NCBI GenBank assembly: GCA_019973155.2
Contig: BPQB01000051.1
Coordinates: 124,001 to 188,000 of the forward strand
Direction: 5' to 3'
Length of the DNA: 64,000 nucleotides
From: Phanerochaete sordida
Taxonomy: Eukaryota > Basidiomycota > Agaricomycetes > Polyporales > Phanerochaetaceae
Shown one piece after another: positions 5,402-31,101 of the stretch. Below the pieces are notes generated by a model. The model worked only from the letters and a program-made list of their open reading frames with translations. It had not been told where the DNA came from and ran no database searches. Position 1 is the stretch's first letter. The number at the start of each line of letters is the position of its first letter. Made by a program: the position numbers and the translations under genes.

Positions 5402-5494
5402 AACCCGAAAGCCCTAATCCCTAAGCCCTAAAACCCTAAAACTAATCCCTAAAACTAAAGCCCTAAAGCCCTAAAACCCTGAAGCCCTAAACCC
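5402..5494. repeat. Telomere-like CCCTAA tract (interstitial)
   Basis: About ten degenerate units of CCCTAA with 0-6-base spacers on the plus strand (TTAGGG on the minus strand). This matches the telomere repeat used by most filamentous fungi. It is internal, not terminal, and lies inside the inverted-repeat unit. Confidence 0.65.
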
Positions 5495-5823: not shown

Positions 5824-5895
5824 TAGCTGACCTGGTTAGTACGCGCTGTGAATAACGCAACTACAGAAACCGGTGAGGCCCGAGTTCGAATCATG
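5824..5895 (+). other. Second tRNA-like sequence
   Basis: On the plus strand TAGCTGACCTGG resembles an A box and GAGTTCGAATC a B box about 58 bases later. A CTGT/ACAG pair lies between them where an anticodon stem would be. The T stem is imperfect. Probably a decayed tRNA or tRNA-derived repeat. Confidence 0.25.
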
Positions 5896-12073: not shown

Positions 12074-12087
12074 GTGCCTGGAGGCTC
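12074..12087. repeat. Target-site duplication, 3' side of the retrotransposon
   Basis: The 14 bases GTGCCTGGAGGCTC directly abut the poly(T) run and recur exactly at 28996-29009. Confidence 0.8.
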
Positions 12088-12106
12088 TTTTTTTTTTTTT
12101 TTTTTT
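12088..12106 (-). other. Poly(A) tail of the retrotransposon
   Basis: Nineteen consecutive T on the plus strand, about 155 bases beyond the polymerase stop codon, directly against the target-site duplication. Confidence 0.8.
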
Positions 12107-12261
12107 ATATTCTCGTGGCTTATCCTGCGTACACAACGGTACATGAGCAGTGCCGGAGCCGGATCTAATCTAATCAGTCGTCCAAATACAGTCGTCTACG
12201 CACAAAACAATCGATCCCAGGGACACGCGTCATCGCCAAGCGGCTGGCGCGCGCTCGGGGC

Positions 12262-15200
12262 CTACGGGGGTTCCCAGTTCTCCAACGCCTCCCTTGTCCG
12301 CGCGTCCGCATCCCAATCCGCCATAAACGCAGTGGCGTCGCCATGTGGGCTGGACCGTCGGAACGCAGCCCACGCATCCCGACGCGCCGTGGTGTGCATG
12401 ATGACGAGCGTGCGGGGGTAAGATTTCACCTGGTGAGCCGCATTATCGGCATCCCTTCTGTCCAGGAGCTCATACCACTCGAAGGTGCCCACCATAGGGT
12501 TGAGCTGCAGAAAGTGCAATAGTTCCGAGTCGGTGGGCAGTGACATGGACGGGACGTCGTCGTCAAGTTCATCGTCCAGGAACAACGCACTGCGTGGGTT
12601 GCGAGGCCCCCGCCGAGCCGGTCGCTGGAAGGGGTGTATCCACAGGGGACAGTCGTACAGTATGTGATCTCGTGTCTCGAGTGCGTAGCCGCAGTGGCAC
12701 TGCTGTCGACCTGGCAGGTTGAACCGCTGGCGGAACTCGCCATGGGGGAAGTGTCCCGATAGGAACCGGGCCGCCCTGGCAAATTCCTTAACCGAAGATC
12801 CCAGCGTCTTGAACAGATAGTGGGAGCGTGGTTTGTGCGTGACCCGGGCGTGATAGTCCTTCCGCAGAAGATTATGGTGTCCACGGTATGTGTCGCTGTC
12901 CATCATCGTGCGCCAGTGACCGAGTGCAGCAGAAGTGGCGTCTTGTCTTGCCTTGGCGTATGACGTGTACGGGGGTTGCACGCCGTAGAGAGAGGCTTTC
13001 GCTTGACCATCTACAAATTCGTTTTGGGCAATGCCTTCGTGTGCTGGGCACCAGTGTAATGTGACCCGGTGGTCGTCCGCAGCCGCCAGGAACGACCGAA
13101 TAACACGACAGATGAGTATAGCCTGCATTTGTCCCGGTCCGCGTTCACACTTGGTCGCTTTATCCACGACAGCCCGATTATCCGTGAAGACATGGATGTG
13201 TCGAACAGAGTGCGGGAGCGACGCAGTCGCATCAGCTAGACCTCTCGCGAGTGCGGTGATCTCTGCATCGTATGGCGTTACATTTCCCAGACCAAGTGTC
13301 CCGGAGGTGCGTATGCGGTCACTGTCGTAGATAGCCCAGGCCGCCCCGGACCCCGGGGCTCCATCGTTTGTCCCCGCAGACCCGTCAGTGAACAGTACCC
13401 GGTTTGTTGGGTCCTGTAAGATGGCGCGTAATCGCGGTCGGAAGTCCTGCATGAGCCAATCACGGAAGGCGTCCTTGTTCCCCTTTGGTGGCGCGTCAGG
13501 AGCGAGGTCAATCTGTAGCCGGTGGGCGTACAGATCGCGCAGCCGCCGTCCCGGGCAGCATTCGTCATCCAGTGGGTAGAAGGGTTCCTGGCTTTTGAGG
13601 GCTAGGATCGCCGCGACCTTAACCGGCGACTGATCATGTGGTAGAATACCGCCATCCCCGGGAATTCTGCCCTCGACGGCAGGGCGTTGTAGTCTCTGCG
13701 CGGTCATGCGCACCGGGTGGTACATTTGTACCGTGTTCAGTCTGAGGGCTGCTCTCGTCATGTACCGGTCAATTTGTGTTCGGATGGGGATGAGACCCGC
13801 CGCCATGTCCAGGGCGCCTACTGGGGTGGTACGAAAGCAGCCCGATATCCATCGTGCGGCTCGTGTCTGAGCATGTTGCAGGGCGGTTGCAGCCCATTTC
13901 CTGCCTTTCCAGGACGGATGCCACCACAACTGTGCCCCATAAAGCATCAGGGGTATAATGTTCGTGATATAAAGTCGCCGTTTGTGCGTGGGGTCGAGTC
14001 CTCGCACAGAGTTGCCGAGCAGACGCATTGCGGCGATGGAGCTCGTGGCGGCAGTGGCGTAATATTGTACATGATGCCTGAAGGACAGGGCAGGGTCCAG
14101 GTAAAATCCGAGGTATCGCATAGTAGTCTTGGGCGGGACGCGCTGTGCTCCAATGGTGGTGTCAAGCACGAGCTCCGGACCCAGAGTTGTGGCCTTTGGG
14201 CGGGTGCGTTTTGGGAAGTGCATTAGTTCGAGTTTATCCGGCTCCACCGTGAGGCCAAGTTTGTGGAGGTCAGAGGTGAGCCCTGTGAAGATACGATTGA
14301 TGTTCTGGTTGTTGCGTGTGAGGGCGTCTGGGCCTGCAGGACTGCTTGCGCTGATAAGGCCATCATCAACATAAAATTGGATGGTGCTGTCCGAGTTATC
14401 GGGTGGATTTGTATGTATCGGAGCCCATTTGTGCAATATGGGAGCAATGTATAGTCCAGCCAGGATGGGCGATAATGCAGAGCCCTGGCCGACGCCGACT
14501 GTGAAGTCCGTTGGGTCCAGCATTTCCCCGTTAAAGATGAATTGTGTCTGTCGGCCGACCAGGTAATCGTCAAAGAAGGCACACAGATGTGTGGAGAAGC
14601 CCTGCTTCCTCAGGACGTCAGTGAGGAGGTCATGCTGTATGGATGGGAAAAATTGCGCCACATCCAGTAGGAGGGCTGATGTGGAGCGGCCTTGTGCCCA
14701 AGCCGTGCGGACGTTGTGGATCAGGGCCATTCCCGCATCCGTAGTGCTGTACTGGATAGTCCCACCATATTGGCACGGGTGCATGATGGAGTATTTCTGG
14801 CCGTCGAATTGTAGGCGGGCCGCAATCATCTTTTCCAGGAGCTTTCCGATGCAGTTAAGGAGGACGATCGGCCGGTATGCCTTGGCCTTGGTATAATCCA
14901 CTTTATTCGGCTTGGGTACAACCACTGTGCAAGAGCGCTTGAAGAAAGTGGGCGTGATTCCGTGTGTGATGCAGGCATTAAATAGCGCCACAAGGCGTGG
15001 CGCCACATGCTCGTGCTCAGCAGACAGCTGCTTGAGCCATTGCCAGTTAAGGTGATCTGGGCCAGGGCAGGACGAATTGTTTGTCCTCCGCAAGTGGTCG
15101 TCGAACTCTGCCCTCGTAAATGGGGGAAAGTCTCGTTGGGGGAGCTGTGGAATATCATCAAGGATGGTCCGGTCGCCGGTCCGTTGGGATGGGGTGAATT

Positions 15201-16746
15201 GGTCCTGCAGTGTGGCGCGCGTCTGTTCGCCCGTCTCAGCAGCCATCCCGTTCGCAGTGGTGAGGTTTATGTGATGGCGCGTCTTTCGCGGGCGTGTCCA
15301 CGCCACCGCCTCCCATACGCTCTTGGCCTGAAGCTTCGCAAGTAGCGAGTCAAAGAGGGTTTTCTTGGCTTTCCTGGTCGCGCGGCGCAGACTTTGATGT
15401 GTGGCGGCGCAGCGGTCCCGCAGTCGGAGAGTCTGCAGGTGTAGGTCTCTGAGAAGGCGGACGTTGCCGGCCCGCGCCGCCTGTCGTTTGTCTTGGCGGG
15501 CGAGCCTCAGCTCCGCTCGATCTCGGCGGAGTGCCCGCGCCCGGACCGAGCAGTCCGCGTCCCACCAGGATTTGGAATGCGCGGTGTGGTGAGGGGCCCG
15601 AGCATGAGCGTGCCATGCATTGTCTGTGACGTTCTGTAGCATTTCGCCCGTTCGCTCCACATCCTCACGGTTCCCGTACTGCGTCGGCAGCGCCGTGATG
15701 CCCTCAGCGATGTCGTGCAAATATTGCGTGACTGCCTCAGCATTTCGTCCGATAGTAGGGATACAGCGGGCCATCGGGTGGATGGGCATCGTCCAGCGCA
15801 GTACGGCGTGGTCGCTTCGGAAGCGGTGGTCCATAAGGACTTCCAGTGAGTCGTAGGAGCCTAGCGAGCTATCCACCCACGTAAGGTCCAGCACTCCTGG
15901 GCGTAGTCGGGGGTTGTTAGATTGCCAGGTGGGTGGCCCGTTGGGATCATTGAGGAGGGATAGTTGCAGCTCAGTCGTGGCGAGCTGAATCAGGTCGTCA
16001 CATGCCGCGACTTTTGTGCGCGCCGGTCGTTGGTCAGCCTGTTCCGCACCGTCGCCATTCCACATGGGGTGGCGTAGATTGAAGTCTCCAGTCATGAAGC
16101 TGAGCTGAGGCATGCGGTCCACGCAATCAAGTGCGTGGCGGACCGCCTCGTGAGAAGACGAGTCATTATACACATTCAGGAAGTGCAGTGCGCCAGTGGG
16201 GAGCGAAAGCGTCACCAGAAGGGCATCCGGGTGGTTGAGGATGCCTGCTCTGATTGTCGGGTGTGCCGCTTGCCAACGCTTGTGGACGTAGACAGCGACT
16301 CGCGATGTGGCCGACGCCCCCAAGCAGGTGAAGTTGGGGTGCGCCACTGTGTTGATATAGTTTTCGCCCTCCGGGCGGGTGCAGGAGGGGACAGTTTTAA
16401 TCACTCCCCAGTAGATTTCCTGCACACATATAATATCCGTCTCGCGGAATTGTTCCAGGAGCAGCGTTGTGTTGATCGCCGACTTCTGTACATTGTGGCT
16501 CACGCACGCGAATGGTGCGTTTTGCGGTGTCCCATCCGTCCCGCGGATGCGACCGGGACCTAATCTCCGAGACGCGCACCCCAGGCCAGCTGGAGGTTCG
16601 CCTGTCACCGGGGAGAGGTTCCTGGGTCTGCTTGCGGTTGCCCGCCGCTCGTCCTGAGGGCCGGGAGCAGCAGTGGACCCGACAGCCCTTCGGAGCGGCA
16701 AGAGGTTCGAACCGGTTGTCTGGGACTCGTCCGTGTGGTTTATCAT
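12262..16746 (-). CDS. Retrotransposon ORF2: endonuclease, reverse transcriptase, RNase H
   Basis: Polymerase polyprotein of a non-LTR retrotransposon, 1,494 aa from the first ATG at 16746; the frame stays open to about 16905. Domains in order: an apurinic-type endonuclease (SHNVQKS, VQEIYW, GDFNLRHPMW near 16080, SDHAVL near 15800), which nicks the target; a reverse transcriptase (RPIVLLNCIGK near 14880, LLDVAQFFPSIQ, FYVDDG with YVDD at 14362-14373); an RNase H (LFTDGS near 13385, YDAEITALARGL, FTDNRAVVD, HWCPAHEGIAQNEFVD) with all expected acidic residues and the histidine; and a C-terminal Cys/His finger (CHCGYALETRDHILYDC near 12690). This order fits the Tad/R1-like group of fungal LINEs. 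No stop or frameshift is seen, so it may be active. Stop codon at 12262, short 3'-UTR, then poly(A). Confidence 0.9.
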   Translation of the reverse strand: MINHTDESQTTGSNLLPLRRAVGSTAAPGPQDERRATASRPRNLSPVTGEPPAGLGCASRRLGPGRIRGTDGTPQNAPFACVSHNVQKSAINTTLLLEQFRETDIICVQEIYWGVIKTVPSCTRPEGENYINTVAHPNFTCLGASATSRVAVYVHKRWQAAHPTIRAGILNHPDALLVTLSLPTGALHFLNVYNDSSSHEAVRHALDCVDRMPQLSFMTGDFNLRHPMWNGDGAEQADQRPARTKVAACDDLIQLATTELQLSLLNDPNGPPTWQSNNPRLRPGVLDLTWVDSSLGSYDSLEVLMDHRFRSDHAVLRWTMPIHPMARCIPTIGRNAEAVTQYLHDIAEGITALPTQYGNREDVERTGEMLQNVTDNAWHAHARAPHHTAHSKSWWDADCSVRARALRRDRAELRLARQDKRQAARAGNVRLLRDLHLQTLRLRDRCAATHQSLRRATRKAKKTLFDSLLAKLQAKSVWEAVAWTRPRKTRHHINLTTANGMAAETGEQTRATLQDQFTPSQRTGDRTILDDIPQLPQRDFPPFTRAEFDDHLRRTNNSSCPGPDHLNWQWLKQLSAEHEHVAPRLVALFNACITHGITPTFFKRSCTVVVPKPNKVDYTKAKAYRPIVLLNCIGKLLEKMIAARLQFDGQKYSIMHPCQYGGTIQYSTTDAGMALIHNVRTAWAQGRSTSALLLDVAQFFPSIQHDLLTDVLRKQGFSTHLCAFFDDYLVGRQTQFIFNGEMLDPTDFTVGVGQGSALSPILAGLYIAPILHKWAPIHTNPPDNSDSTIQFYVDDGLISASSPAGPDALTRNNQNINRIFTGLTSDLHKLGLTVEPDKLELMHFPKRTRPKATTLGPELVLDTTIGAQRVPPKTTMRYLGFYLDPALSFRHHVQYYATAATSSIAAMRLLGNSVRGLDPTHKRRLYITNIIPLMLYGAQLWWHPSWKGRKWAATALQHAQTRAARWISGCFRTTPVGALDMAAGLIPIRTQIDRYMTRAALRLNTVQMYHPVRMTAQRLQRPAVEGRIPGDGGILPHDQSPVKVAAILALKSQEPFYPLDDECCPGRRLRDLYAHRLQIDLAPDAPPKGNKDAFRDWLMQDFRPRLRAILQDPTNRVLFTDGSAGTNDGAPGSGAAWAIYDSDRIRTSGTLGLGNVTPYDAEITALARGLADATASLPHSVRHIHVFTDNRAVVDKATKCERGPGQMQAILICRVIRSFLAAADDHRVTLHWCPAHEGIAQNEFVDGQAKASLYGVQPPYTSYAKARQDATSAALGHWRTMMDSDTYRGHHNLLRKDYHARVTHKPRSHYLFKTLGSSVKEFARAARFLSGHFPHGEFRQRFNLPGRQQCHCGYALETRDHILYDCPLWIHPFQRPARRGPRNPRSALFLDDELDDDVPSMSLPTDSELLHFLQLNPMVGTFEWYELLDRRDADNAAHQVKSYPRTLVIMHTTARRDAWAAFRRSSPHGDATAFMADWDADARTREALENWEPP

Positions 16747-17635
16747 CGTAGTATTGTGTGCAGGTAGTGTAGGACGCCGCCAGAGACCCGGCGGCGGGGC
16801 ATTGGGTCCTGTGTTGTCCCCGAGTGTCTCGGCACCCTCGGTGTCAACGGTGGGCCCGCTTGCCTCCAGCGTGATAGGCCTCAATCCGAATTTGCACGCA
16901 ATCACCGTTGTCCGTCGCCTCGGCGATGCGTGCCTGGGCCGAGCTTTCCTGTCCTGCTCACCTCGGAGCAGTCAGTAGATGCGGGCGTCGTCCCAGTCGA
17001 CTGTAGGCCAGTGTTCTTAAAGGCCGCACTAGAAAAGCCTGCAGTCTTTGGCCACCGTACAGAGCAGCCTAGCACCGGCCGAGGGGTGCCCTAACCGTGC
17101 CGCTGTGTACGTTTCATACCATAATGTTTTCGGCGCGGATTCTCCAAGGTGTCCTTCTGCTAACTTGTCCAATATTACCTTTTACATGGCTGTGGCCCAT
17201 GGCCTCAGGCGTTACAGTACGACGCAGGCATTCGCAGTCTTGGTCTCAGTGTGTGCGTGACCCCGTATATGATATTCAGCTGTGCTGGTACAAGTACATG
17301 TGTCAAGTGCGTGGCCGCAGAGGAAGGCATGTCAATGGGAGAGCAGGTCGGCTAAGGCCTGGGAAGGTCGGGCAGTGCATGGGGTCGTGTATCGACTGCG
17401 GGCGGGGATTGGAACCTATATTTCACGTCCTGCAGCGAACGATGAGACGAGCGTGTGTGTTGGCAGCGGAATCGGAGAAGAGACAGTCGCATCGTGGCAA
17501 GCCTATGGTACAGCGTAAACGGAGTAGGCGAGGAAGGTCGTAATAGTCGTCACGGGTCATGAGCGAAATGGGTGAGTGCATACGTGTGTGTCATTGGGTC
17601 GTGATACGGGGTCGCGCGTCGGTGCCCAAGGGTCG
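16747..17635 (-). other. Spacer between ORF1 and ORF2 of the retrotransposon
   Basis: No separate gene seen. The ORF2 frame remains open to 16905 without an ATG. A TTTAAG-like core lies near 17017 on the minus strand. Confidence 0.4.
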
Positions 17636-20178
17636 TTACTTGTTGCTGCCGACTCGTGCGGTGTTCTTCGTGTTGCGCGGGGGGCGGTGCGTGCCCGGCG
17701 CCGGCGGGGGGCCTTGTTCCTTGGCGGCAGGGGCCTGCGGTCGCGGGCCGGTGGTGGTCGTGGCCGCGATGCGTCGCTTCGGCGGCGGCATCACTCCGTG
17801 CCATCCAGGGATCTGCATGAACGGGCACGAGAACTGGTAGTGGTCCCGCCCGTGGCAGCCTTCGCATTCAACGTTAGACCGTACCGCAACTTCGGCAAGG
17901 AAAATGTCGGCCCACTGGAAGCTGTTGAGGAGGCGGTGCCAGAGCTTCCATGTTTCTGTCGTCATGATGCTGGTCGACATGTACAGACTGTAGATGGGGA
18001 TGAGGGAGGCTCCGCGGCCGTGCTTCTCCGATCGCGTGATGCGAACGGTGTTGATGAGCCGTCGAGCGAGTTCGACAAAGTCCATCGTGTCGGGGAGGCC
18101 TGGGGTCTCGCGCAGGAGCTCGACGATAGCCACAAGGTTGGGTCCTCTCGTCATGGTGGCGATCGCCATGTTGCGGACCATGTCACATCCGCAGTCGGTG
18201 ATGTGCGCAAAGGTGACGAAGAGGGATGGCAGGGTCACGGCGAACGGGAAGAACATGACAGTGACCTTCGGGGTCGAGAGGCACTTCTGGCGGATGAGTT
18301 GCGTCGCCCGTCCAGCAGAGAAGCCATGGACCAGATACGCGTATGGTGCCTGGTTGAGCTCCTTGACCTGTCGTTCGGCAATGGGAGGCGAGACGTGGAC
18401 CGTGGAGACGCCTAAGAACTTCATAGTAACGTTCTGGACGTGCGCGACAGTGGAAAAGAGACGGTCGTCAAGCTTGTGGTCGTTGGCGCCCTGTCCGAAT
18501 GCGACGGCGAGCACCTTCCCGCCTGGGAGGCCCACCCAGCCGATAATGTTCTCCTTGGCTTGGTTGGTCATCTGCCATCCAGGGCTTCCTCCGTTCTGCT
18601 CTGGGAAACCGCTAGGAGGGGTGGGAGTGAAGGTCGTAGCAGGTTCTGACGTGGATGCCCCGATGGTGGACGTGTCTGAGGTGATGAAAGCCTCGAGAGA
18701 GCCCTGAGCAACCGTTGGGATGCTCTGGTCCTCGCTAGCTCTGCCATCCTGGCTGGGTCCCGCCGAGTAGTGTCCACCGTCCGGGCTGGTCAAGCTACGG
18801 GACGGTTCGTCGTCTCTGAGGGATGCCATGGGGGGCACGTCTTGCGCCAAGCCTGGGCGTCCGGGCGCGTCCGCCTGTGAGGATCCGGGCACGCCAGAGC
18901 CGAGCGCCGCGTCCGCAAGGACATGGAGTGGGTTGTGCTCTGTGTCCTCCGTGGCCTGTGACGACTGCGTGCCTGCCGTTACGACGAACGGACCCGATCC
19001 GATAAAGACAGGGCCTGCCCCGTTGAGGCGGGGCTTCTTGTGCGGAGCCTCAGAGTCACGCTGGACCGCTTTGCCGTGAGGTGAGCGGTCGACTGGCGCC
19101 TCCGGGCGCTTCCCCTGGGGGCGCGACGGGAGGATAGGAGCTCCAGCCGGCAGCCTGGCCCGTCGCAGCTCGGCCTGCGTGAGTTTCTTGGGAGGGGCAG
19201 CAGCTCTTGGGGCCTCTGGGGTCTTAGGGGGGGGCAGGGATGGGGGTGTCTGGACGCGTCGAGGTGCCTCGGCGGGATGGCGGAAACGACGGGACGACGA
19301 GGGGAGGGAGGAATTCGATGGGTGGAGCCGGGATCGCCGCGGCTGGTGCCAGCAAGAGCGACTGGTAGTCCTGCCGGTTAGTCGGTGTGAGGGCCGACAG
19401 TCCGTGGGCTGGGCGCGCAGGGGCTCTGGGCACAGCGGGGTCCCTGCCGCGTAGTGTGAGATTGGGCTTATGGGCGTTCTCTTTGTTAGAGCCATGAGCA
19501 TCGATCAGCTGAGCCAGCTGGTCGACCGGAGCTCCCTGGCGTGTCCCGCGCAGGGTTCGTCTGGCCTCCGCGATGCTCTGTCCCAAGGTGCGTCCTGTAG
19601 ACAGAGGGTTAGACGTGCGGTGTATGGGTGCGACGAACGGTCGTCACTTACGGGTAGGGGGCGGCGGAGGGGATGGCGGGGACTCGGAGAGGTCCTCTGC
19701 TGCCTGGTCCTCCTCTAGCGTGCCCGCGCTGTTGGCGTCGCCCTCGCTGTGCGTCGGGGAGGTGTCGCGTGGGGTGGTCGACGCCGGAGCGCTGTCGGAG
19801 GGGCACTCCCCGTCTTCGACTTCCACGTATGACAGCTCGGACTCGTCGTCGCCAAACTGCGAGACAGAGTCGCCGTACTGCGGTGGCTGTTCCGCCCTGG
19901 CCACCTTAGGGGTGACTTCTGTGGCAGAGGTGAGCATAGGTCATCGGCGCCGGCGCAATTGCCCACATACCCGGCTTGAGTTCGGGGGTCTCCGGCGGGA
20001 GCCGGTCTCCATGGTTGGACAAGACAGCGTACACGTTGGGCGCTACGATCGGGACGAGTGTGGTCGTCGATGCAGCGCGTCCCTTCTTCTTGTGGGCGGC
20101 TGCAGGACGTTTGGCCTGTGGGGCTGTCTCTGCAGTCCTGCTGGGTTTCTGTCGTCCCGCTCTCGAGCGTGTTTCCAT
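17636..20178 (-). CDS. Retrotransposon ORF1: gag-like protein with CCHC knuckle
   Basis: Nucleic-acid-binding ORF1 protein of the element. Starting at the ATG at 20178, three segments read in phase if two GT-AG introns are removed: 19971-20178, 19652-19918 and 17636-19594 (introns 52 and 57 nt, the second with GTAAGT and CTACAG). The third segment needs a +1 shift at a run of eight C (19227-19234) directly before an in-frame TAA; with it the protein is about 810 aa. The N-terminus is basic (KRPAAAHKKKGRA) and the middle proline-rich. The folded part (WVGLPGGKVLAVAF onward) ends in a CX2CX4HX4C zinc knuckle, CEGCHGRDHYQFSC, near 17830-17871. A TATAAG lies 80 bases upstream of the start (20259-20264). 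Without the shift the main frame starts near 19501 and is 621 aa or less. Confidence 0.7.
19227..19234 (-). other. C8 slippery run at the ORF1 frame change
   Basis: On the sense strand eight C are followed by TAA. The upstream frame reads CCC CCC TAA; a +1 slip gives CCT AAG and enters the long downstream frame. It could be a +1 programmed shift, a one-base insertion, or a sequencing error in a homopolymer. Confidence 0.5.
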
Positions 20179-20878
20179 GTTGGTGGAGGTTTACAGTGGG
20201 GTGAAGGTGGATGCGTATCTGTGGGTGAGGCTGAGCGATGAACTCCCAGTTGACTGGTCTTATACTCAGCTGTTTGTGGCTGGGGATGGACCGTCCAGGG
20301 GTCCGCCATCGCGTCGCGTCACCGTTGACGTTAGGTCGCGGTCCAGCAAGCTGGTTCGTTTGCAGGGTCAGGCCACCGTGTACAATGCAGAGATGCGATT
20401 GAGATGTCGCTGGCAGTCATGGGAGCATAACGCGAACGCACATCGTGACCGCTGCATTATGTCACGGGGTGACCGTCGTAACGGCTTGTGTCACCTCACC
20501 GTGCGGTCCGATCAGGTCAGTCGTCTGGGACCGTTCCGCCGGGCTCTCAGAGCGGCGGTAAGGGCGAACGAAATAGATCTGCTGTGGCAAAGTGGCATTT
20601 ACATAGGTAGTACAGGCATGTGAATGAGAGCACGGGAGAGAGTTCATAATGTGTCCGCGTGGACACCTATCAGTCTGGGGACAGTCTTGTAGCTGCGATG
20701 CGGATCGTATTCCGTCATGGGGAAGTCAGTCATACTTTCATGTGTTTGCGACTCCAAGCCCTGCTGACTGTGTGAGAATGCGATAGCAGGGTGGCTGTCG
20801 TAAGGTCGCGGAGTGCGAAGCTCACCGTTTCCGAGTGTTTGGTTACCTGGAGCCCTGAGGGTGTTCGCCTTCTTGGGT
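20179..20878 (-). other. Retrotransposon spacer upstream of ORF1
   Basis: Holds the ORF1 leader with the TATAAG near 20260. Otherwise no gene I can support. Confidence 0.35.
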
Positions 20879-21757
20879 CTACTGTGTCTGACAGCCGTCG
20901 TTGTCGCGGCCGTGAGTCGCGGATTCGATCGGGCGGATCGGTGTTTCCGGGACCGGCGGGTAGGTGTTGGGGAGAAACCGCCGGAGCAGCCTATGGGCGA
21001 AGGCAAGGATACTCGGCAGGGAGGACCAGCCGTCCTTGACCGGGATGGCACACATGACGAGCGGCTCGAATTCGTTTTTGCGTTCGAGGAGGAACTCCCC
21101 CCAAACTGCTTCGGGGAAGCGTGCCGCGACGACTTTCCTGCACACCCAGAGATAAGTGTCGTTCGGGTCGTATAAGGCGACGTGGTCTCCAACTCTGATG
21201 GTGCTATTTGGAATGCCCCAGGCCTGGTATAGCTGTATGGCTTGTCTGGTGTTGTGGTGGTGCGCCGTGATGACCGTCAAGAGCTTTGCTCCCGAAATGA
21301 AGTAGTCATGGGGCTCCATGAAGAGCGGGCGCTGTGCCTGCCAGATCGCCAGGTGGATCCCGTAAGCGTGCCGCAGCAGGATGTCGAGGCAGGTGGGTGG
21401 GCGTACCGTCTGCCCATGTGAGTGCGGCGTCGGTTGCACGTCCACGGGCGTTCCGTCCCGTAGCCCGCCTCCTTCCCTTTGTGGCTTCGGGCGGGGCGCT
21501 GGGGTATCCGGTGCCGCCCGGGACGGGCGCAGCACCCGGCCGTCTCCGGCGGGCCGGATGTCAACTGGTCGCTCCTGTGTTCCAGTTTCCGTGCCGCGTT
21601 GATCACCCAGTCCCGTCACAGACAGGGCGCGCGGTGGCAACTGTCGCGGTGCTTCGAGGTGCGTGTGTGCTATTGCGCAGGCCATGAGTGGGATTATACG
21701 TCGAATTGACACCGTATTGTAGGGTGGCTTACGTGTGGACAAGTCGACCTCAGTCAT
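20879..21757 (-). CDS. Unknown protein carried in the retrotransposon
   Basis: Open frame of 292 aa from an ATG at 21757; family not recognised. The N-terminal 110 residues are proline/arginine rich and look disordered. Residues about 120-260 look folded, with alternating aromatic and hydrophobic strands (DYFISGAKLLTVI, then RVGDHVALYDP, then TYLWVCRKVVAARFP, then VWGEFLLERK). A GTAAGC shortly after the start could be a splice donor, so the N-terminus may differ. It is co-oriented with, and about 700 bases upstream of, the gag-like gene. It could be an accessory or regulatory protein of the element; I have no functional assignment. Confidence 0.45.
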   Translation of the reverse strand: MTEVDLSTRKPPYNTVSIRRIIPLMACAIAHTHLEAPRQLPPRALSVTGLGDQRGTETGTQERPVDIRPAGDGRVLRPSRAAPDTPAPRPKPQREGGGLRDGTPVDVQPTPHSHGQTVRPPTCLDILLRHAYGIHLAIWQAQRPLFMEPHDYFISGAKLLTVITAHHHNTRQAIQLYQAWGIPNSTIRVGDHVALYDPNDTYLWVCRKVVAARFPEAVWGEFLLERKNEFEPLVMCAIPVKDGWSSLPSILAFAHRLLRRFLPNTYPPVPETPIRPIESATHGRDNDGCQTQ

Positions 21758-22911
21758 ATTGACCGACCCAGTACCGTGCTGCTTGTGTCGCTGCGCAGGG
21801 GGAATGGGAGAGTCCAGCGGCCACTGGGTGTCTCTTAAACTCCTGCGCAGGCGTGCTTGTGGGTGCCTTTCTGGGGGCGTCGTGATCCGTCGTTTTAGTC
21901 CTTGACGTCGGCTGAGTTTCTGGTGTGGAGGTGGCGAGGATTTCAGGGTGAGGCCCTGGGCCTGCCGTACACTTCCGTTGATGGGTCTGGTAGGCTTAGG
22001 GAGCTGTTCGGGATGTCGTTATGGGTTCTTGGGCTAGGGCAATTTTTGCTCAGGTTGTGACGTGTGGGCGCGTAACCAGTCAATACAAGCACCTGTCCTT
22101 TTCTGTTGACTTGTTCTGTCACAATTGAGCCCACGGGCAGAGCCGGTGCCCCGCCCGTGGGCTGACGAGGGTGTGTAGCAAGCAGGTCCTACTCTCTCTT
22201 TGTGTCGCGGGCATTGACCTGGCGCCCGGGCACTTGGGCGGCGCGCGCCGGAGCGCCGGCCGCGGTCGAGACGGGTCGGTTCAGCCGGTATGACCGCCGA
22301 GCGCCCCACATGGCCGGCGTCGATTTCACGTGGCACTCGTCTTTCGCTTCCATGGCGGAGCGCCGTGTGCTCTGGAGTACCGTCGCCGCGGGAGGCGGTG
22401 GGCGCGTGGCGTACTCCGTAGGTCGTATACGCGACGGGTCGCAAGCAGTGAGGCAGCCTGTCCCAAAATGCGTAGTTGTGTCAGCTCGGAGCTCATAGAC
22501 GTCGCGGCCCACCGCGTTACTCACGCTCGGGGCCTTGCCCGGTGGTGGGAGGCCCTGACTCGGACACCGCGACCGTCCCCGCTGGTGTAGCTGCGGGCGC
22601 AGAGTGGGCTGTGGTGCGGCTGTTCATTCGCTCAGCTACTTTAACCGCTCTGCTACCGTCCAGCTGCTTTGCAGCGCGCAGCTGTACCAGGCCCTCGCCA
22701 TCTCGTTGTTTATGTCAAGTGCTATTCCTCCCCGGTCGGACTGTAGTCGCAGACGGTCTCTAGCGTGTGGCGCAGAGACCATGGCTTGATATATTACATG
22801 CTATTGTACACGCGAGCACTATGTTGTCGCTGGGAGAGGGGATAGTATCGCAGGCAGGCGTGACCACGTACAGGGGTTCTGGGGCAGGCAGAGCTACGCT
22901 GACCAGGTACC
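21758..22911 (-). other. Retrotransposon spacer
   Basis: About 1.1 kb, strongly G/T rich on the plus strand, without a supported gene. A TTTAAG-like core lies near 21833 upstream of the 21757 start. Confidence 0.35.
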
Positions 22912-24072
22912 TTACTCATACAGGATCGCGAAGTCTGGAACGGTCGGGAACCACATGGGGAACTGCTCGTACAGATCCTTCCAGACCTCTTCTCCAGTGC
23001 AGCCAGCCTTGTTGGCGGCGACGTTGAGCTGGAACGTGACCGAGTTGAGGCTGGTGCAGGACGCCTCCAGACGGGCGCAGATGGATTTGGCCGGGAGGCT
23101 CGCGAGCGCGCGGGTGAGCGCTTCGAGTGTACGAGGTCGGGTGAAGATGGTGATGACAACGTCACGCAGGGACTCCGGGCACGTCATGAGCATAGGGAGA
23201 AGGGAGCGTGTGACGGCCTTGGACTCAGCCCTCAAGGGAATCGGCGAGTACGGAATGATGACGTTCAGCGTCGTGAGGTGGTCGGCGCCGAGCAGAGACA
23301 GGTGTGTCTCTTGGTTGGATTCGTAGACCTGCGGGTGAGTGGGCGAGAGGAAGAGGGTGATCTCTTCGACGGTGGCGCTCGCGGCTTCGATAATCGCATT
23401 AGCGTAGACGATGCGGTCGTCGGTGATGCGCCCAATGTGCAGGCGTTTCGGAAACATCTCGAGGTGTCCGAGCAGTGGCTCGATTCCCGCCCAGTCAGTG
23501 GGGCTCATGATGCGCGTGGTCCTCACGTGAAGGCGGTCGACGTTGGGGAAGGCCTGGGTGAAGCAGGTGAGGGCCTTCGTAGCATCGCGGGTGTCGTAGA
23601 CGTCGATGGTGAGGTCCGTGACGTTCTCGAGGACGATAGTGGCTGGGTACAGCCCTTGCGGGAACGGGAGTGCGGTGCACGTCATGTGTTCCAGTTCGAC
23701 CGCGGTGAGGTTGGGGAAGCGCGAGCATATCGACAGCACTTTGCCCAATAGGACGTGGCTGTCGTACGCGTTCTTCTCCCCTTCGTCCTTGATTTCTCCA
23801 GTGAAGACGAGGCGGCGTACGAGCGGGATGGCCCGTTCGCCGGCCTTCGGCGTGGTCTTGTCGTAGAAGAAGAAGGTTTCCCCGGCCGTGAAGCACGCAC
23901 CACACGCACTCGCCCTGAAGACGGTGGTCGCGAACACAATGGGGTAGGCGATGGTCGAAATGTAGCGACAGATGTGCGCGGTGACGATCTTGTCTTTCGT
24001 CTTCACGGCGTCGGACACCGCCACGCGCACGATCTTGGAGATGGTCTCCGTGGGTAGGGTGCCTATGGTCAT
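22912..24072 (-). CDS. F-box-like protein carried in the retrotransposon (1)
   Basis: Single-exon frame, 386 aa from the ATG at 24072; the open frame extends upstream to 24174 without better support. The first 50 residues resemble an F-box of the agaricomycete type (LPTETISKIVRVAV, then HICRYISTIAYPIVFATTVF). The remainder has repeated leucine-rich segments (FPNLTAVELEHM, ENVTDLTIDVYD, FPNVDRLHVRTT, GADHLTTLNVII) like the substrate-binding part of F-box/LRR proteins. It has no MHRCL-type N-terminus and no intron, so it is not a member of the genomic F-box family elsewhere in this window. It lies between retrotransposon-borne frames on the same strand. Likely role: SCF ubiquitin-ligase adaptor; whether it serves the element is inference. 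Confidence 0.65.
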   Translation of the reverse strand: MTIGTLPTETISKIVRVAVSDAVKTKDKIVTAHICRYISTIAYPIVFATTVFRASACGACFTAGETFFFYDKTTPKAGERAIPLVRRLVFTGEIKDEGEKNAYDSHVLLGKVLSICSRFPNLTAVELEHMTCTALPFPQGLYPATIVLENVTDLTIDVYDTRDATKALTCFTQAFPNVDRLHVRTTRIMSPTDWAGIEPLLGHLEMFPKRLHIGRITDDRIVYANAIIEAASATVEEITLFLSPTHPQVYESNQETHLSLLGADHLTTLNVIIPYSPIPLRAESKAVTRSLLPMLMTCPESLRDVVITIFTRPRTLEALTRALASLPAKSICARLEASCTSLNSVTFQLNVAANKAGCTGEEVWKDLYEQFPMWFPTVPDFAILYE

Positions 24073-25461
24073 GGTGGCAAGCGTTGCTGGTTGCCTATCA
24101 GTCTCGAGGGCAATGCGACGTTTGCGCGTGCTTACTCGTTGTGGGGTCTGTGCACACTGCTGGGGCAAGGGCAAGTCTGGGGTCGGTGGGTCGGGGCAGC
24201 TGGGTCGTTCAAGCTGATTGATTGTGTGCGGTGTTGTCCTGCGAGAACAGACGGGCGTGCGCTCCGTCAGGGCCTATCCTCAGGACCGGCGCGTGTCATG
24301 CGCGACTAGAGTTCGTCGTGTCAGCTGGTGGCTCGTCTCGGTGAGCTTGGATTGGGCTTCATCGCGCCCGTGGAGCGTCCGTCAATGCGTTATTGTCCTG
24401 GGAGTCTCAAGTCCGTTACGGCGTTGTCTGCCCTGTGGTGCTAGTTTGTGCTGTCAGGCACCGCCGCTCTCGTAGTCTGTCGCACGCACCATACGCGGAG
24501 GAGAGCCCTTGTGGGCCTCACTCCCGGCAGGGCCGGCGTCGCGGTGCGTCAGTTCCACGGGCCTGGCCGAGGGGGAGGGCGGCGTCCGTGCCCGCTTAGC
24601 AGATACGTGTCGGGCCTGTCCTACACCCTCAGGCTATGTGTTACTCTGTGTGAGACTGTTGCCCGTTCTTCCGCGCGTTGTTGGTGTATTCTATGTTGTT
24701 GAGCAGTGGCGTATAGTGTCGCCGGGCTGCCCGCGGCAGGGTCCGCCGTGTGGGACGCGGTGACTTGAAGTTGCCTTTCGGGATCCGCGTAGTTCAAGTT
24801 TTAGAGTTCGCCTGTCTTCTTCGCAGAACCGCGAAGTTAGCGTGGCGTGTTTTAGGCGTCCATCGGGCGCCCATGAACCTTACTTCGTTCCAAAGATCAG
24901 AGCCATTTACTGGGACTGATGTGCCTGGTGCCGTCATGCTGCGGGCCTTCTCCGTGCGCAGCTTTGGACTCGCGCGATTAGCAGGAGTCGCTGTTGTTGA
25001 TTTGGCGGTCTCCGCTCCGCTCCCGCGATGGTGAGGGGTCATGTGCGGCCGTTCTGGGGCACGGGCTACCGTCTGCGCGGTTCGCCCGCCAGGGTCACCA
25101 TGTCGCTCATTCCGTTCCTGTCCTTCGCATTCGCTAGGCCGTTTCTTGGCAGCAGTCTGGGTGGGCCGAATTGTAGTCTGGAACCTGTCGACCGCGACGT
25201 GATATCAGGCCTATCAGGAGGGGCAGCACGGGACGCACCCGGGTGGGTTCGCGTCGGGTAGCGCATCCGTCAGGTGGGCGGGCCCATTCTCGCAGCGCAT
25301 TGTTGGGTGCGCCTGCGGTCGTATGCTTATGTCTCGCATTTGTATCGCTCAGTCAGAGTCAGTCTGGTATGGCATTGATACGGTTCTCTTACTATTGTAC
25401 AGCTGTGTCATTTGGACTGTTGTTACGTGCTGGTCGCGTAGAGGTACGGGTCGCGGCTACG
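24073..25461 (-). other. Retrotransposon spacer
   Basis: About 1.4 kb between the two F-box-like genes, G/T rich on the plus strand. Short frames only; no gene supported. Confidence 0.35.
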
Positions 25462-26598
25462 TCAAATGAGCTCCAGGAATCGTTCATACTTTCGGAGTGC
25501 AGTACGCCAGCCTCTACTGATCCTCTTCACGCGCTGCCATCGGCTAGCTCTCATCGTCGTGCTAACGTCCGAGCCTCCGGCCCTGATGTACACCTTTCGC
25601 ATGGACGGGACGCGGCGCAGGAGCGCGCAGAGTGACTGGATAGGGAAGGTGGCCAGAGCGCGGAGGAATTCGTCTACGGTGTCCATCCGGTTCCAGAAGA
25701 CGACGTGAGTGGTTGTGATGGTAGGGGGGGAATACTCGACCATGTGGAGGACTGGCAGAGAGTGGGCGACGATATCGTACCAGGCATAGTCGACCCGGAG
25801 TGGGATGAAGATGTCGAGCTCGCCGAGCCGCGTGAGCGTCGTGAGGTCAACGCGGGCGGGCCCGATGATCTCATAGTGCGGGTCAGGGGTGGCCCATAGC
25901 TCGATGCTGAGGTGGGCGAGCGTGGGTGCGGACGCCCGTAGAATGAGGTTTACCGCCTCGACTTGATCAATTGTGCAGCGTCGGACTCTGAGGGCGGTGA
26001 GCGGGAGGACGGACCCCTCCATTGTAGCCTTGAGGACGTCGAGGTCCGTGTCCATGACTTCGCCACCGTATCCGTCAACTTGGAGTGTGGTCAGGCGGGG
26101 GAGCCTGGTGGCAATGCTCGCAACGGCATGCATGGTGACGTCTGCGTGGGAGCCCGTGATAGTGAGGGAGGTGCTGCTGGGAGGTCCCATGGGGGCTGGG
26201 AGGGAAAGGGGCCCGAGCTCCGTGATGTTGAGACCGTTGAGTGTGAGTTCGCGTAGGTCTTCGAACGTGTTCACGAGCGTGAGGATTTCGGTCGGGGTGA
26301 CGTCGCTATCCTCGTAGAGGCGGGGTTCGCTCGTGAGGCCACGCTCAGAGATGGTTAGGTGGCGGACCAGCGCGCGGTACGCTGTGTTGGCTGCCATCCA
26401 GGTCGTCACTTCAGCGAGTGGGGAGGACGCCTTCCCGACGTAGACCGTCGTGTTCTTCATCATCGCCGGCCTCGCCGCCCATGCACACTCGCGATTCGTG
26501 CGTGACAGCATCGTCGCTCCTCTGTTGGTTGGGTCCTCCTCCGCCAGCTCGGCAATCCTGGCGATGACTAGAGCCGGGGGGGCACGCTGGAACGACAT
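25462..26598 (-). CDS. F-box-like protein carried in the retrotransposon (2)
   Basis: Single-exon frame of 378 aa from the ATG at 26598, with TATAAAA 41-47 bases upstream (26639-26645). The N-terminus looks like a diverged F-box (PPALVIARIAELAEED, then MLSRTNRECAWAARPAMM). Leucine-rich segments follow (FEDLRELTLNGLNI, LPRLTTLQVDGYG, PLTALRVRRC, LTRLGELDIFIPL). The overall plan matches the neighbour at 22912-24072, although sequence similarity by eye is low. Start choice: first ATG of the frame, correctly placed behind the TATA box. It is inside the retrotransposon and co-oriented with the gag and polymerase genes. Probable SCF adaptor; target unknown. Confidence 0.65.
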   Translation of the reverse strand: MSFQRAPPALVIARIAELAEEDPTNRGATMLSRTNRECAWAARPAMMKNTTVYVGKASSPLAEVTTWMAANTAYRALVRHLTISERGLTSEPRLYEDSDVTPTEILTLVNTFEDLRELTLNGLNITELGPLSLPAPMGPPSSTSLTITGSHADVTMHAVASIATRLPRLTTLQVDGYGGEVMDTDLDVLKATMEGSVLPLTALRVRRCTIDQVEAVNLILRASAPTLAHLSIELWATPDPHYEIIGPARVDLTTLTRLGELDIFIPLRVDYAWYDIVAHSLPVLHMVEYSPPTITTTHVVFWNRMDTVDEFLRALATFPIQSLCALLRRVPSMRKVYIRAGGSDVSTTMRASRWQRVKRISRGWRTALRKYERFLELI

Positions 26599-27461
26599 GG
26601 CGATGGTGAGTTGGGTTCCCGCTGGCGCGCTGGGATGGTTTTATACGTACGTGCGGTCCGCTTTGCGCGCGTGAGCGCCCGACCCCTGTGCCCGTTCCTG
26701 GACGTGCGTGGTCTGTGTACCGGGCTGCTGAGGATGTCGCGTTGTAGCAGCGCTCAGGTCGCCGTCACGGCCATTTGGCCGTTAGGCTGTACCGCGAGTT
26801 CGTGTTGTGTCATCTTGCAATGGTGAGTGTCGTGTCGATGTGCAGTGTATTGGGGACTTACGGATGTACCGTGTGCAACATTCGTGTTTGCACATCTGTC
26901 GTCGGTGAGGGTTCGGTGGCCGTGCTCGCCGTTCGGTGTTGAGAGTAGGGCGGTACGGATTCGTCAGGCTGACTGTGCATTCAGTGCTGGAGGTACCTGT
27001 GGACGGTGGTGTCGCGCAGGATGGGCGGTGAATGGGTTTGGTTCAGTACGCTGTGGCAGTCTGTAGAGGTGGGTCACACCAGCGGTACCGTTCAGACTGG
27101 ACGGTTGGGTATCATGTCATGTGACTTGCGCCAGTGTGGGAGGGAATTTCCCACTTGAGCCACTGCGGGCCGGGCAGGGAATATTTGCTGGCGTTATTAA
27201 TCGTTCCCGGTCTTCGACCATACTGTCTGTTTTCCCTCGAGCCAAATTTATTGTGGTACGTGCAGGCAGTACTCGACCTCACGTCATTTATGTCTGAGGG
27301 CTCTTTCCGTCCCGTCCCGTCTCGCTTCTCATGCCAACCCTCCTTCGCATTGGGCTGTGTCGCGCTTTGTGACCCCGCGATGCGTCTCCTGGAGTGAATC
27401 TCTAAGAATGGGGTGCTCAGTTGTCATGAGAGAAGGCTGAGATGCCGTCCTGCTTACGGCG
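26599..27461 (-). other. Retrotransposon spacer with TATAAAA
   Basis: Contains the TATAAAA at 26639-26645 that fits the gene starting at 26598. Nothing else recognised. Confidence 0.4.
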
Positions 27462-27890
27462 TCAGGTGAGTATGTTCTCGAAGTGGCCCACGCGCAGCTG
27501 AGGCTTCGGTTCGAGGAGCCAAAGGCTGCGGTCGACCGGGATTTTGCCGTTTCTATGCTCAAAGCGGCGACGTTGGGTCGGCGTGGGCTCGACTGCGCGG
27601 GAGGGTATGGCCATATAACACGCTGAGGTGTTGTCCGTGGTGTGACGTATTAGGCGGAAGATATAGTGGTTAAATTCCAGGGCACAGACGTCCTGTACAT
27701 GGAACAGGCCGCGCAGGCCGTGGATATGGACCCACTGTCCTGTGTGGATCCTGCTCTCAGGGGCCTGGGTGAGCGTGAGTGGGTAGCTCGGTGTGGACAG
27801 GTCTGCGTGGATGTAGCTGGCCAGTTCTTCCGTGCAGTTGCATTCGTGCGGGATCTCCCGCCACCGCGGGTGTCGTTTGGCGTGCAGCAT
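27462..27890 (-). CDS. Unknown small protein at the 5' part of the retrotransposon
   Basis: Open frame of about 142 aa from the ATG at 27890; the frame stays open a little further upstream without an ATG. Family not recognised. The centre looks folded (HTGQWVHIHGLRGLFHV, then EFNHYIFRLIRH) and begins with a glycine-aromatic-valine turn that also occurs in the unknown protein at 20879-21757 (RVGDHVALYDP). That may hint at a shared fold, but the similarity is weak. A TATA-like ATATAAAG lies 218 bases upstream (28108-28115). Confidence 0.3.
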   Translation of the reverse strand: MLHAKRHPRWREIPHECNCTEELASYIHADLSTPSYPLTLTQAPESRIHTGQWVHIHGLRGLFHVQDVCALEFNHYIFRLIRHTTDNTSACYMAIPSRAVEPTPTQRRRFEHRNGKIPVDRSLWLLEPKPQLRVGHFENILT

Positions 27891-28995
27891 AGGAATGGGC
27901 TTGCGGGCCTGTTTGAGGTTGCGCACGGGGTTGTCTGATTTACGTTATGGGTTATCAAGGTCAGTGTCAGGTCTTGGGCTCGGTGAGATGGAGCGAATAT
28001 GCGGTGCGACGTACATATGTGGCTGTGGGTCATTTTGTATGGCCGTGCTGTTGTGTGCAGTCTGGTGTGCGCGGCAAGGCGACGTCTGACAGGGCTGCTC
28101 GGTGGGTCTTTATATGGCCTCTGCCGTGTAGCGTCTGTTCGTTGACAGTTGACATGCTGATACGCGAACTGCGGTGGCATGAATATTGAGGATCTGGGGT
28201 CGTGACGGTCGCAAGAATGTCCCTGTGTGCTACTGTGTCAAGGTACTGGTGGTATGAGCGTGGGGGGCTTATCGTTCATTATCGTACGTCCGCTTGGATG
28301 TCCTGTGGGTCGTGGACCGTATTGCTAGCGAGGTTCACACCGTTCTGCTATGTGCACTTGGCAAGGCGCCCGGCACATGGCGCCCTTGCGCCGGCCCGGT
28401 GCGGCGCGCGTCTGCGTACCCGGAGAGGGTCGGGCGAGTATGCTGACGCGTCACTTGTTAGGCGCCCTAGTTGTCGCAGACTGCGCTGCGGGTCGTGCTG
28501 GTCCCCGTCCCATCGTCGCCTTCTCAGGTAGTGGGTGCGCCGGACGGGTCCTCACGTCCTTGTGAGCTGTTCGTGGGGTGTAGCTGGAGGCCGTATATGA
28601 GGCGGAATGAGTAGGTGTTCGCACTGCCGGCTTGGTCACGTCTGCACTATCGCTGTGTACCCCCTGCCCTCATTCGCATGCGTCTCACTGTTGTCGTGGT
28701 GAGAGTTACGGATGTTGCGCCCTCCGGTGGTGGGGGTCTGCTCTCAGAGGTGGGTTCGTCTCCGTGCCACCTATCTCAACGGCGTCAGGGCCACTGTCAG
28801 GCAGGTGCCGGGCTCTTCGCTCTGGGTGTGGTGGCATTCAGGGAACGCTGGGGAGTGGTTCTAGTCAAGTTGTTATGTATTTAAGAGCCTTGTGCAGGTG
28901 GGCTGCACGCAGCTCGGGCTTTGCAGCACGATCTAAGGACCGGTGAGGCCCGAGCGCTTAACCCGAAGGTGGTGGTTGGGGAACAACCAGCGCTG
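27891..28995 (-). other. 5' leader of the retrotransposon
   Basis: About 1.1 kb between the 5' target-site duplication and the first reading frame, with a TATA-like ATATAAAG at 28108-28115 and a TTAAATA near 28877. No gene supported. Confidence 0.4.
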
Positions 28996-29009
28996 GTGCC
29001 TGGAGGCTC
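28996..29009. repeat. Target-site duplication, 5' side of the retrotransposon
   Basis: Exact copy of GTGCCTGGAGGCTC at 12074-12087. It marks the 5' boundary, and the strong G/T bias ends here. Confidence 0.75.
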
Positions 29010-29213
29010 GGCGCGTGCACATCCTGGTTCCAGGGTCCGCACAGACCCCTGACACCGCATACCGTCCGCCGTGTTTTCTGAGCGAACACGCACCAGGTTC
29101 GCATGTCCAAACTGATGGAAATTGCATCGTGATTGAATGACAAGGATGTGCTGCAAGTTCGGTAGGGCTAGCTTCAGCGGCAGGTAGGCCGAGCCTCGCC
29201 CCGTGGGGGGAGC

Positions 29214-29518: not shown

Positions 29519-31101
29519 TCAGACTTCCTCGTCACGGCCTCTGTCGAATCGTGCGCCGTACAGGCCGTGGACGAGACGCCCTATCGTTCCGTTAATGACT
29601 TTGTCAAGGCGCGTGTCCTCGAAGCTTTCGACCGTCACCACGGGAAAATTCTTCGCGAGGAGCCGCACCGCATGAACACAACGCGGCGAGGACACGTCGC
29701 TGACCCAGAGCTTCCTGAGGTTCGCGTGTGTTGTCGTCCATTCCTTCTCGAGCTCCGTCTCCGATGCAAGTTGGAGGAAGACAGCGAGCTCGCGCAGGTG
29801 GGGGCACAGTCGGGCGAAGGGAAGGATGTCGTCGAGACTTAGCATACGCAGGGGACGCTCCCCGAACAGCGCACGCGATTGGTATAGCCGCAGGCACTGC
29901 ATTCGCGGCCATGAGCGCGCCATGGGCTCGATGTCGGCCGCGGTCAAGCTAAACGCGAGGACACTGAGGTCCAGCGTCTCCAGCTCGCGCAATGCGTGCA
30001 GCGGAGCGAGCACTGATGCGTCCAGTGCTTCTACAGGATCCCTGCTGGACGGCCGACTACTCTTGATTGTGAGCGAGCGCAGAGAAGTCAGTTTGGAGAC
30101 TTCCTGGACGACCAGTTGGACATGGGCCGCGGTAGGACGGTGTAAGGGGACAGTGCCTCGATGGATGATGTGGTAGATGATGTTTAGATGTTTCAGCGCG
30201 GGAAGTGCCATCCTGCGCAACAACTTCGCGACGGCGTCCATGTCTGTCTTCGCGGATATGTCAAATGATGTGAGAGAGGGGAAAGGGAGCCTAGTGTCCT
30301 CGAGATCCAAACTGTCAATCACGAGGCGCAGGGTCTTCACGTTCGAGAGCGACGCCAAATGACGGAAGGCCTTGGGGGAGTAGAGAGAGATGTCGAGATG
30401 GCCCACCCGCTGCAGCATCGCAAGTGCTTGCCACAGCCCCTCCGCGAGCTGAGGTTCGCGCTCGCCCAGGAAGCGCGTGCTAATCTCCAAGTATTCCATC
30501 GTCTCGGAGCAGCCAGGCAACACGTCGATGAGCTGCGCGATGCCACGTTCGTCCAGGCCGTCGACGACAAGCTTCCGCAGCGGCGGCGTGATAAGAAGGG
30601 GAGCGTGCGAACAATTGCATTCCGGGGCCCATTCCCAGAGAACAGAGCGGAGCCGAGGGAGGGCTTGGATTCCAGGAAAATGTTCCAAGACAGCACACCA
30701 GTGGAGGGGTAAGTCCGTCGTCTCGGTGTAGGATATCACATCCAGAGTGTGCACGCGGCGAGCATATTTGCTGAAGCGTACCCAGTCTGATGCGGAGGGC
30801 GGACGCAGCGCCATCTAGGCAGCAGCGCAGTTACGAATGACGACTTCAGCTCAGAGCATGCAGTCGTACGCACCATCTCCACGCTTTCTCCGTCCATGTT
30901 AACCCTCGCGAAGGACGTGTCTGTAAGAAGGTCGACGAGACACATCCCGTCCCGTGGGTGCCGCCACAGCGCGTCCATGGCCGGGTCAAAGAATCCGCGA
31001 CATGTTAGCGCCATGTGTAGAAGGGCCCGGGTGTCCAAGGGTGAGAGAAGTTTATCAGCGACCATTTGGAGAACTTCATCGATGCGAAGACATCGGTGCA
31101 T
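29519..31101 (-). CDS. F-box/LRR-like protein, tandem copy C
   Basis: Exons 30874-31101 (76 codons) and 29519-30814 with a 59-nt intron in phase 0 (GTGCGT donor, CCTAG acceptor), giving 507 aa. F-box: MHRCLRIDEVLQMVADKL, then MALTCRGFFDPAMDALW. The second exon opens with PPSASDWVRF and YARRVHTLDV and continues as leucine-rich repeats (LPRLRSVLW, MEYLEISTRF, LRELETLDLS, WPRMQCLRL). Its C-terminus (YGARFDRGRDEEV) is the most diverged of the family. The upstream 230 bases and the N-terminal half match the next gene (32914-34517), so the two are a tandem duplicate. Expected function: substrate adaptor of an SCF ubiquitin ligase. Confidence 0.85.

Follow-up and report, generated by a model that had tools for sequence, protein, structure and literature searches.

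A giant LINE with a conserved block of extra genes at its 5′ end in Phanerochaete sordida

LINEs are usually compact, with lengths of 4–8 kb. The stretch of DNA analysed here (64,000 nucleotides of Phanerochaete sordida, located on contig C51 and hereafter called the window) contains an insert of 16,908 bp that we interpret, with a probability of about 0.93, as a full-length giant LINE belonging to a lineage with a fixed extra gene block at its 5′ end. The original prediction offered either a giant cargo-carrying LINE or a large 5′ transduction. The former is supported by a contiguous copy on contig C87 and by a copy split between contigs C74 and C39, which have their own duplications of 14–15 bp, the same 5′ gene order and poly(A) tails. 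All searches for copies covered one assembly, that of a single genome of 40.8 Mb in 222 contigs, and the numbers of matches found in it are lower bounds. The features of the element are collected in table 1.

Table 1. Features of the giant LINE in the window (positions are those of the window)
Feature	Position	Strand	Basis
Target-site duplication, copy at the element 3′ end	12074..12087	.	Exact 14-mer GTGCCTGGAGGCTC
Poly(A) tail, A19 on the sense strand	12088..12106	-	Exact T19 run in the window
3′ end, ORF2 to tail	12107..12261	-	Segment next to the tail matches the corresponding position in C87 and C39
ORF2 polymerase	12262..16905	-	Pfam domains
ORF2, RNase H domain	about 12994-13401	-	RNase_H, 9.1e-11
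ORF2, reverse transcriptase domain	about 14101-14916	-	RVT_1, 1.9e-24
ORF2, endonuclease domain	about 15802-16500	-	Exo_endo_phos_2, 2.5e-12
ORF1, gag-like	17636..19501	-	Identity 62% to C87, about 54% to C39
Short frame, 90 aa, 5′ of ORF1	19906..20178	-	Resembles parts of longer frames there in C87 and C39 (by eye)
p3, 379 aa	20879..22018	-	Residues 230-363 kept in C87 (51%)
Gene B, LRR-type, ATG at 24072	22912..24273	-	Homologues: C87 71%, C74 28-30%
Gene A, LRR-type, paralogue of B, ATG at 26598	25462..26640	-	Homologues: C87 69%, C74 40%; fold comparison
p160, accessory frame	27462..27944	-	Homologues: C87 65%, C74 43-49%
Conserved 5′ end, predicted terminal stem	28875..28995	-	88.5% identity to C87 over 122 columns
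Target-site duplication, copy at the element 5′ end	28996..29009	.	Exact 14-mer GTGCCTGGAGGCTC

In the whole window, the tail is the only homopolymer of A or T that reaches 15 bases. As had been predicted, it directly adjoins a 14-mer of which an identical copy lies at the opposite end of the insert, and both copies are exact. The chance of such a match to the bases beside the tail is about 64,000/4^14 = 2.4e-4, which agrees in order with the earlier estimate. Exact repeated 14-mers are not rare per se, as the window contains 145 of them, many overlapping; the match is meaningful because it adjoins the tail rather than because of any rarity of 14-mer repeats. The predicted end of a base bias at the element edges was also found: the A–T skew on the sense strand is 0.17 inside the element and 0.00 and 0.03 in the two 5-kb flanks, and it ranges from 0.17 to 0.25 in four element pieces versus −0.04 to 0.09 in six flanks. 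Among the repeats listed for positions 10000–31000 (20 of 22 direct families and 13 inverted pairs), there are no terminal repeats other than the duplication, and long terminal repeats are thus absent from that list, as membership of the LINEs requires. A poly(A) 3′ end combined with a target duplication, a further mark of LINEs, is present in the window, in C87 and in the split copy. The claim that all genes lie on one strand holds for the six frames with homologues in other copies, which are all on the minus strand, but not for every open frame, as frames on the plus strand, the longest of 279 aa, overlap them.

The frame on the tail side, ORF2, matches endonuclease, reverse transcriptase and RNase H models in Pfam, confirming that a LINE polymerase adjoins the poly(A) tail and that the element combines a reverse transcriptase with a LINE-type endonuclease. 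The reverse transcriptase also matches R2 and LINE-1 ORF2 chains. ORF1 has no match in a Pfam search up to E 0.1 and contains, by eye, a cysteine/histidine knuckle close to its end. By eye as well, the short frame that precedes ORF1 in the window and the start of ORF1 are absent from the frames seen in C87. Tad1-type fungal LINEs have an ORF1 with zinc knuckles and an ORF2 with endonuclease, reverse transcriptase and RNase H. The giant elements share with them the ORF1–ORF2–poly(A) plan and the domain order, a likeness at the level of the gene plan; they differ in having a length of 15.4–18.5 kb and p160, A and B (and p3) 5′ of ORF1.

The search for further full-length copies identified one at C87:45776-64279, with an insert of 18,474 bp, homologues of all six frames, corresponding ends, an A19 tail and its own perfect 15-bp duplication, GATTCTGTCACCCTG, on both sides. 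A BLASTN comparison of the two elements with 1 kb of flanks gave two long alignments with 62.4% and 62.0% identity, beginning at position 28995, the base of the element that directly adjoins the duplication in the window, and running six bases beyond the tail. Because the alignment starts there and the duplication of C87 is a different one, the 5′ end of the element is supported independently. When the DNA of positions 20200–29009 was used as a query, C87 was the sole match besides the query itself, up to query base 8796 (window position 28995), whereas the 3′-terminal 1.2 kb matched C87, C39 and C149 besides itself. Between B and p3 a stretch stays unaligned, about 0.9 kb long in the window and 2.4 kb long in C87, which we counted against the reading as a giant LINE.

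The third copy is divided between two contigs. C74 contains its 5′ half, where homologues of p160, A and B follow one another as they do in the window (with identities of 43%, 40% and 28%) and the 5′ end can be recognised (67% over a stretch of 67 bases, E 4e-4); C39 contains its 3′ half with ORF1 and ORF2 (54% and 56%), the match to the latter including one stop, and an A21 tail. The 14-mer GATACAACCCCGAT stands directly after the C39 tail and directly before the C74 5′ end, and it occurs once in each piece examined. At the break lies a repeat of 2,207 bp (C74:106976-109182 and C39:294323-296529, 98.0% identical) that has inverted-repeat-like ends and, by eye, TGGCC on its left side in C74 and its right side in C39; this arrangement would fit a single insertion of the repeat between the two halves. 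No repeat of this type was found at the two other flanks of the third copy, which without the repeat measures 5,967 + 9,425 bp. Both a real exchange between two 2,207-bp repeats and a misassembly fit the split. Beyond the repeat, C74 has a Ty3-type integrase-like sequence (by eye). The order and strand of p160, A and B are kept in all three copies, and on the evidence of these three, one of them split, the element moves as one unit.

A large one-off 5′ transduction, in which a host promoter further upstream drove the transcription of an ordinary LINE and neighbouring genes were taken along, would likewise yield a long insert with a poly(A) tail and a duplication at its ends. This part of the original prediction was not supported: the same 5′ end and gene order recur in copies that are about 38% different and have other duplications, and the genes themselves have no match outside these elements among the matches listed for the assembly. 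Matches to the LRR proteins in the same assembly are confined to the three giants (6/6, 7/7 and 6/6 of those listed), as are those to p160 (3/3). Given that the module keeps its order and strand in three copies, has dN/dS of 0.15–0.25 between the window and C87 and lacks matches elsewhere among those listed for the assembly, we regard both a one-off transduction and a nested ordinary LINE as very unlikely.

To place the giants among the LINEs of the genome, we searched the assembly with ORF2, which gave at least 25 matches. Fourteen related pieces were checked for tails; eight have one and six lack an A run of 9 or more. The flank is readable in all tailed pieces except C149, and five of these seven relatives have their own duplications of 13–17 bp or longer, 17 being the longest tested, within the DNA examined: C42 (insert 5.8 kb), C15 (6.5 kb), C28 (1.3 kb), C54 (1.8 kb) and C21 (2.9 kb). 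C66 and C70 have tails and no duplication in the DNA examined. The 3′ flanks of the seven relatives and the three giants start with GA in every case (10/10), a count that omits C149 because its contig ends two bases (CA, not GA) after the tail. In a reverse transcriptase tree of 11 sequences, which contains LINEs of this genome only and no reference LINE clades, the three giants group together with support of 1.00, and the window groups with C87 at 0.94. The same kind of duplications, the GA flanks and this grouping indicate that the giants share the insertion habit of the other LINEs of the genome and carry more. A second, distant group of reverse transcriptases (C103:68783-70102, C156:22222-23535 and C88:23137-24408) is 26–27% identical to ORF2, and its members are 91–97% identical to each other in the reverse transcriptase region.

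No copies of this element reduced to the part at 12.1–20.2 kb, which would have spoken against the original prediction, were found. The nearest cases are the distant C42 and C15 (46% and 44% identical in ORF2), which have ORF2 with no more than about 1 kb of sequence 5′ of it and show no block; the frames 5′ of ORF2 in C42 run across the duplication, and both elements may be 5′-truncated. An empty site or allele was not found in this assembly of one genome. A nested structure, in which an ordinary LINE of about 8 kb lies beside or within an older element that carries the LRR genes and the 14-mer match arose by chance, could draw on the exact 14-mer repeats elsewhere in the window and on C149, which has p3 (residues 257–354 are conserved, 27%), ORF1 and ORF2 without p160, A or B detectable by BLASTP, and in which a kinase gene lies upstream and the contig stops at the element end. 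Such a structure would have to have originated three times, each time with corresponding ends and an outer duplication (14, 15 and 14 bp), and inside the element the plus strand has GTGCCTGGAGGCTC again only in a form with 3 mismatches (at 23088), so that we assign it a probability slightly below the already very low one of a transduction. Movement of the block by segmental duplication or by another mobile agent such as a DNA transposon, which the mere three copies known would allow, is just as improbable, as the homology with C87 starts at the duplication edge and stops six bases past the tail, flanks and duplications differ between the copies, the tails have 19–21 A and no terminal repeats are among the repeats listed.

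The protein of gene B has an F-box-like start by eye. Pfam searches for an F-box in A and B of the window and of C74 gave no match up to E 10; in C87, A has no Pfam match and B has one weak match to an FBD-associated LRR (E 0.23). The F-box-like end of the LRR protein model has a pLDDT below 50. We hypothesise that the LRR module acts in F-box-like counter-defence. The frame of p160 in the window lacks an ATG where that of C87 has one, and its low-confidence model (pLDDT 48), perhaps a small β-barrel, has no fold match with E ≤0.001. With this missing ATG, the differences around the start of ORF1 and the stop in the C39 match to ORF2, each copy is at most putatively autonomous.

The dN/dS values between the window and C87 are 0.15 for p160, 0.25 for A, 0.18 for B, 0.21 for p3 (128 codons only), 0.26 for ORF1 and 0.17 for ORF2, ratios that are rough because dS is high (0.9–1.9). 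Third codon positions differ most (0.42–0.62) and second positions least or tied (0.13–0.24). At the level of sequence comparison, these data demonstrate codon-level constraint on the six frames between the window and C87. Relative to the third copy, the identity of the accessory proteins (A 0.40, B 0.29–0.30, p160 0.43–0.49) is lower than that of ORF1 and ORF2 (0.57–0.59), and selection on B cannot be read from the pair of window and C74 because third positions no longer stand out in that comparison. The dS of A and B between the window and C87 is about half that of ORF2 (0.9 vs 1.8), which codon constraint or an exchange of the block among elements might explain.

Several other sequences lie close to the element. 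Near its 3′ end is a Helitron (6043–11406, minus strand) with a frame of 1787 aa containing Helitron_like_N and PIF1 helicase domains and with a 96-bp tandem duplication at 10516–10706, and beside the Helitron is a degenerate, telomere-like AACCCTAA repeat (5402–5491). A 16-bp exact repeat beside the Helitron (5869–5884) and at the 5′ end of the LINE (28939–28954) may be due to chance. The insertion is flanked on both sides by genes for four paralogous proteins (8–1372, 2224–3486, 29519–30814 and 32914–34230, all on the minus strand), which are 29–55% identical and in three cases match LRR_14 under the curated cut-off. No kinship of A and B with these paralogues was detected, as BLASTP gave no match at E 0.01 and a profile comparison gave a probability of 1.8%. 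Searches for known ribozymes or RNA families had no match at gathering scores in the window or in the C87 piece, and a search of 28800–29010 gave one weak match (E 0.59) on the opposite strand that extends past the element end. The last pair of the predicted 5′ stem is U–A in the window and C87 and C–G in C74 (by eye, three sequences); we claim no ribozyme, because this covariation amounts to one pair among three sequences.

Judging from the usual marks of LINEs, the element would yield one polyadenylated transcript of about 17 kb that starts at the conserved 5′ end and would be bound by the ORF1 and ORF2 proteins. A nick made in the target by the endonuclease would leave a primer ending in ...TC and join the tail to GA..., and ORF2 would then copy the entire RNA into the site by target-primed reverse transcription, giving rise to the duplication. 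The duplications are perfect and the tails unbroken, which hints at a fairly recent date for each giant insertion despite the far-apart sequences. With less certainty, the two LRR proteins might be the receptors with which an SCF-type ubiquitin ligase eliminates a host factor that holds the element in check, through RNA silencing or another genome defence. Viral F-box proteins disarm silencing, and by analogy a parasite-borne receptor may follow a shared logic. Only tentatively, then, do we propose that the giant LINEs form an old lineage, still active in recent times, which retains an F-box-like ubiquitin-ligase receptor module as counter-defence and moves via one RNA of 15–18 kb.

According to passages of a 2019 review of giant eukaryotic transposons, Terminons are giant Penelope-like elements of bdelloid rotifers that are endonuclease-deficient and attach to telomeres (PMC6431247). 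They resemble the present element as giant retroelements carrying accessory genes; however, the latter has a LINE endonuclease, a poly(A) tail and target duplications, which exclude its identity as a Terminon. In the same passages, 3′ transductions by L1, in which a LINE also takes extra DNA along, are rarely longer than 1 kb in human or 3 kb in mouse (PMC6431247), whereas the block described here is 5′, about 8 kb long and common to diverged copies. The headings of the review name planarian LTR elements, Terminons, Helitrons, Polintons and Teratorn, and none is for LINEs (PMC6431247). In a search of titles and abstract openings of the open literature, none of the matches listed names a giant LINE with a stable gene block.

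Copies of 15–18.5 kb with duplications at both ends mean that a LINE polymerase would copy RNAs of this size to their end, and LINEs would retain cargo genes under selection over long times. Two questions thereby become testable, namely the reach of target-primed reverse transcription and LINE-encoded counter-defence. If the proposal is true, the counter-defence lineage would be the LINE counterpart of viruses with accessory genes and of Terminons.
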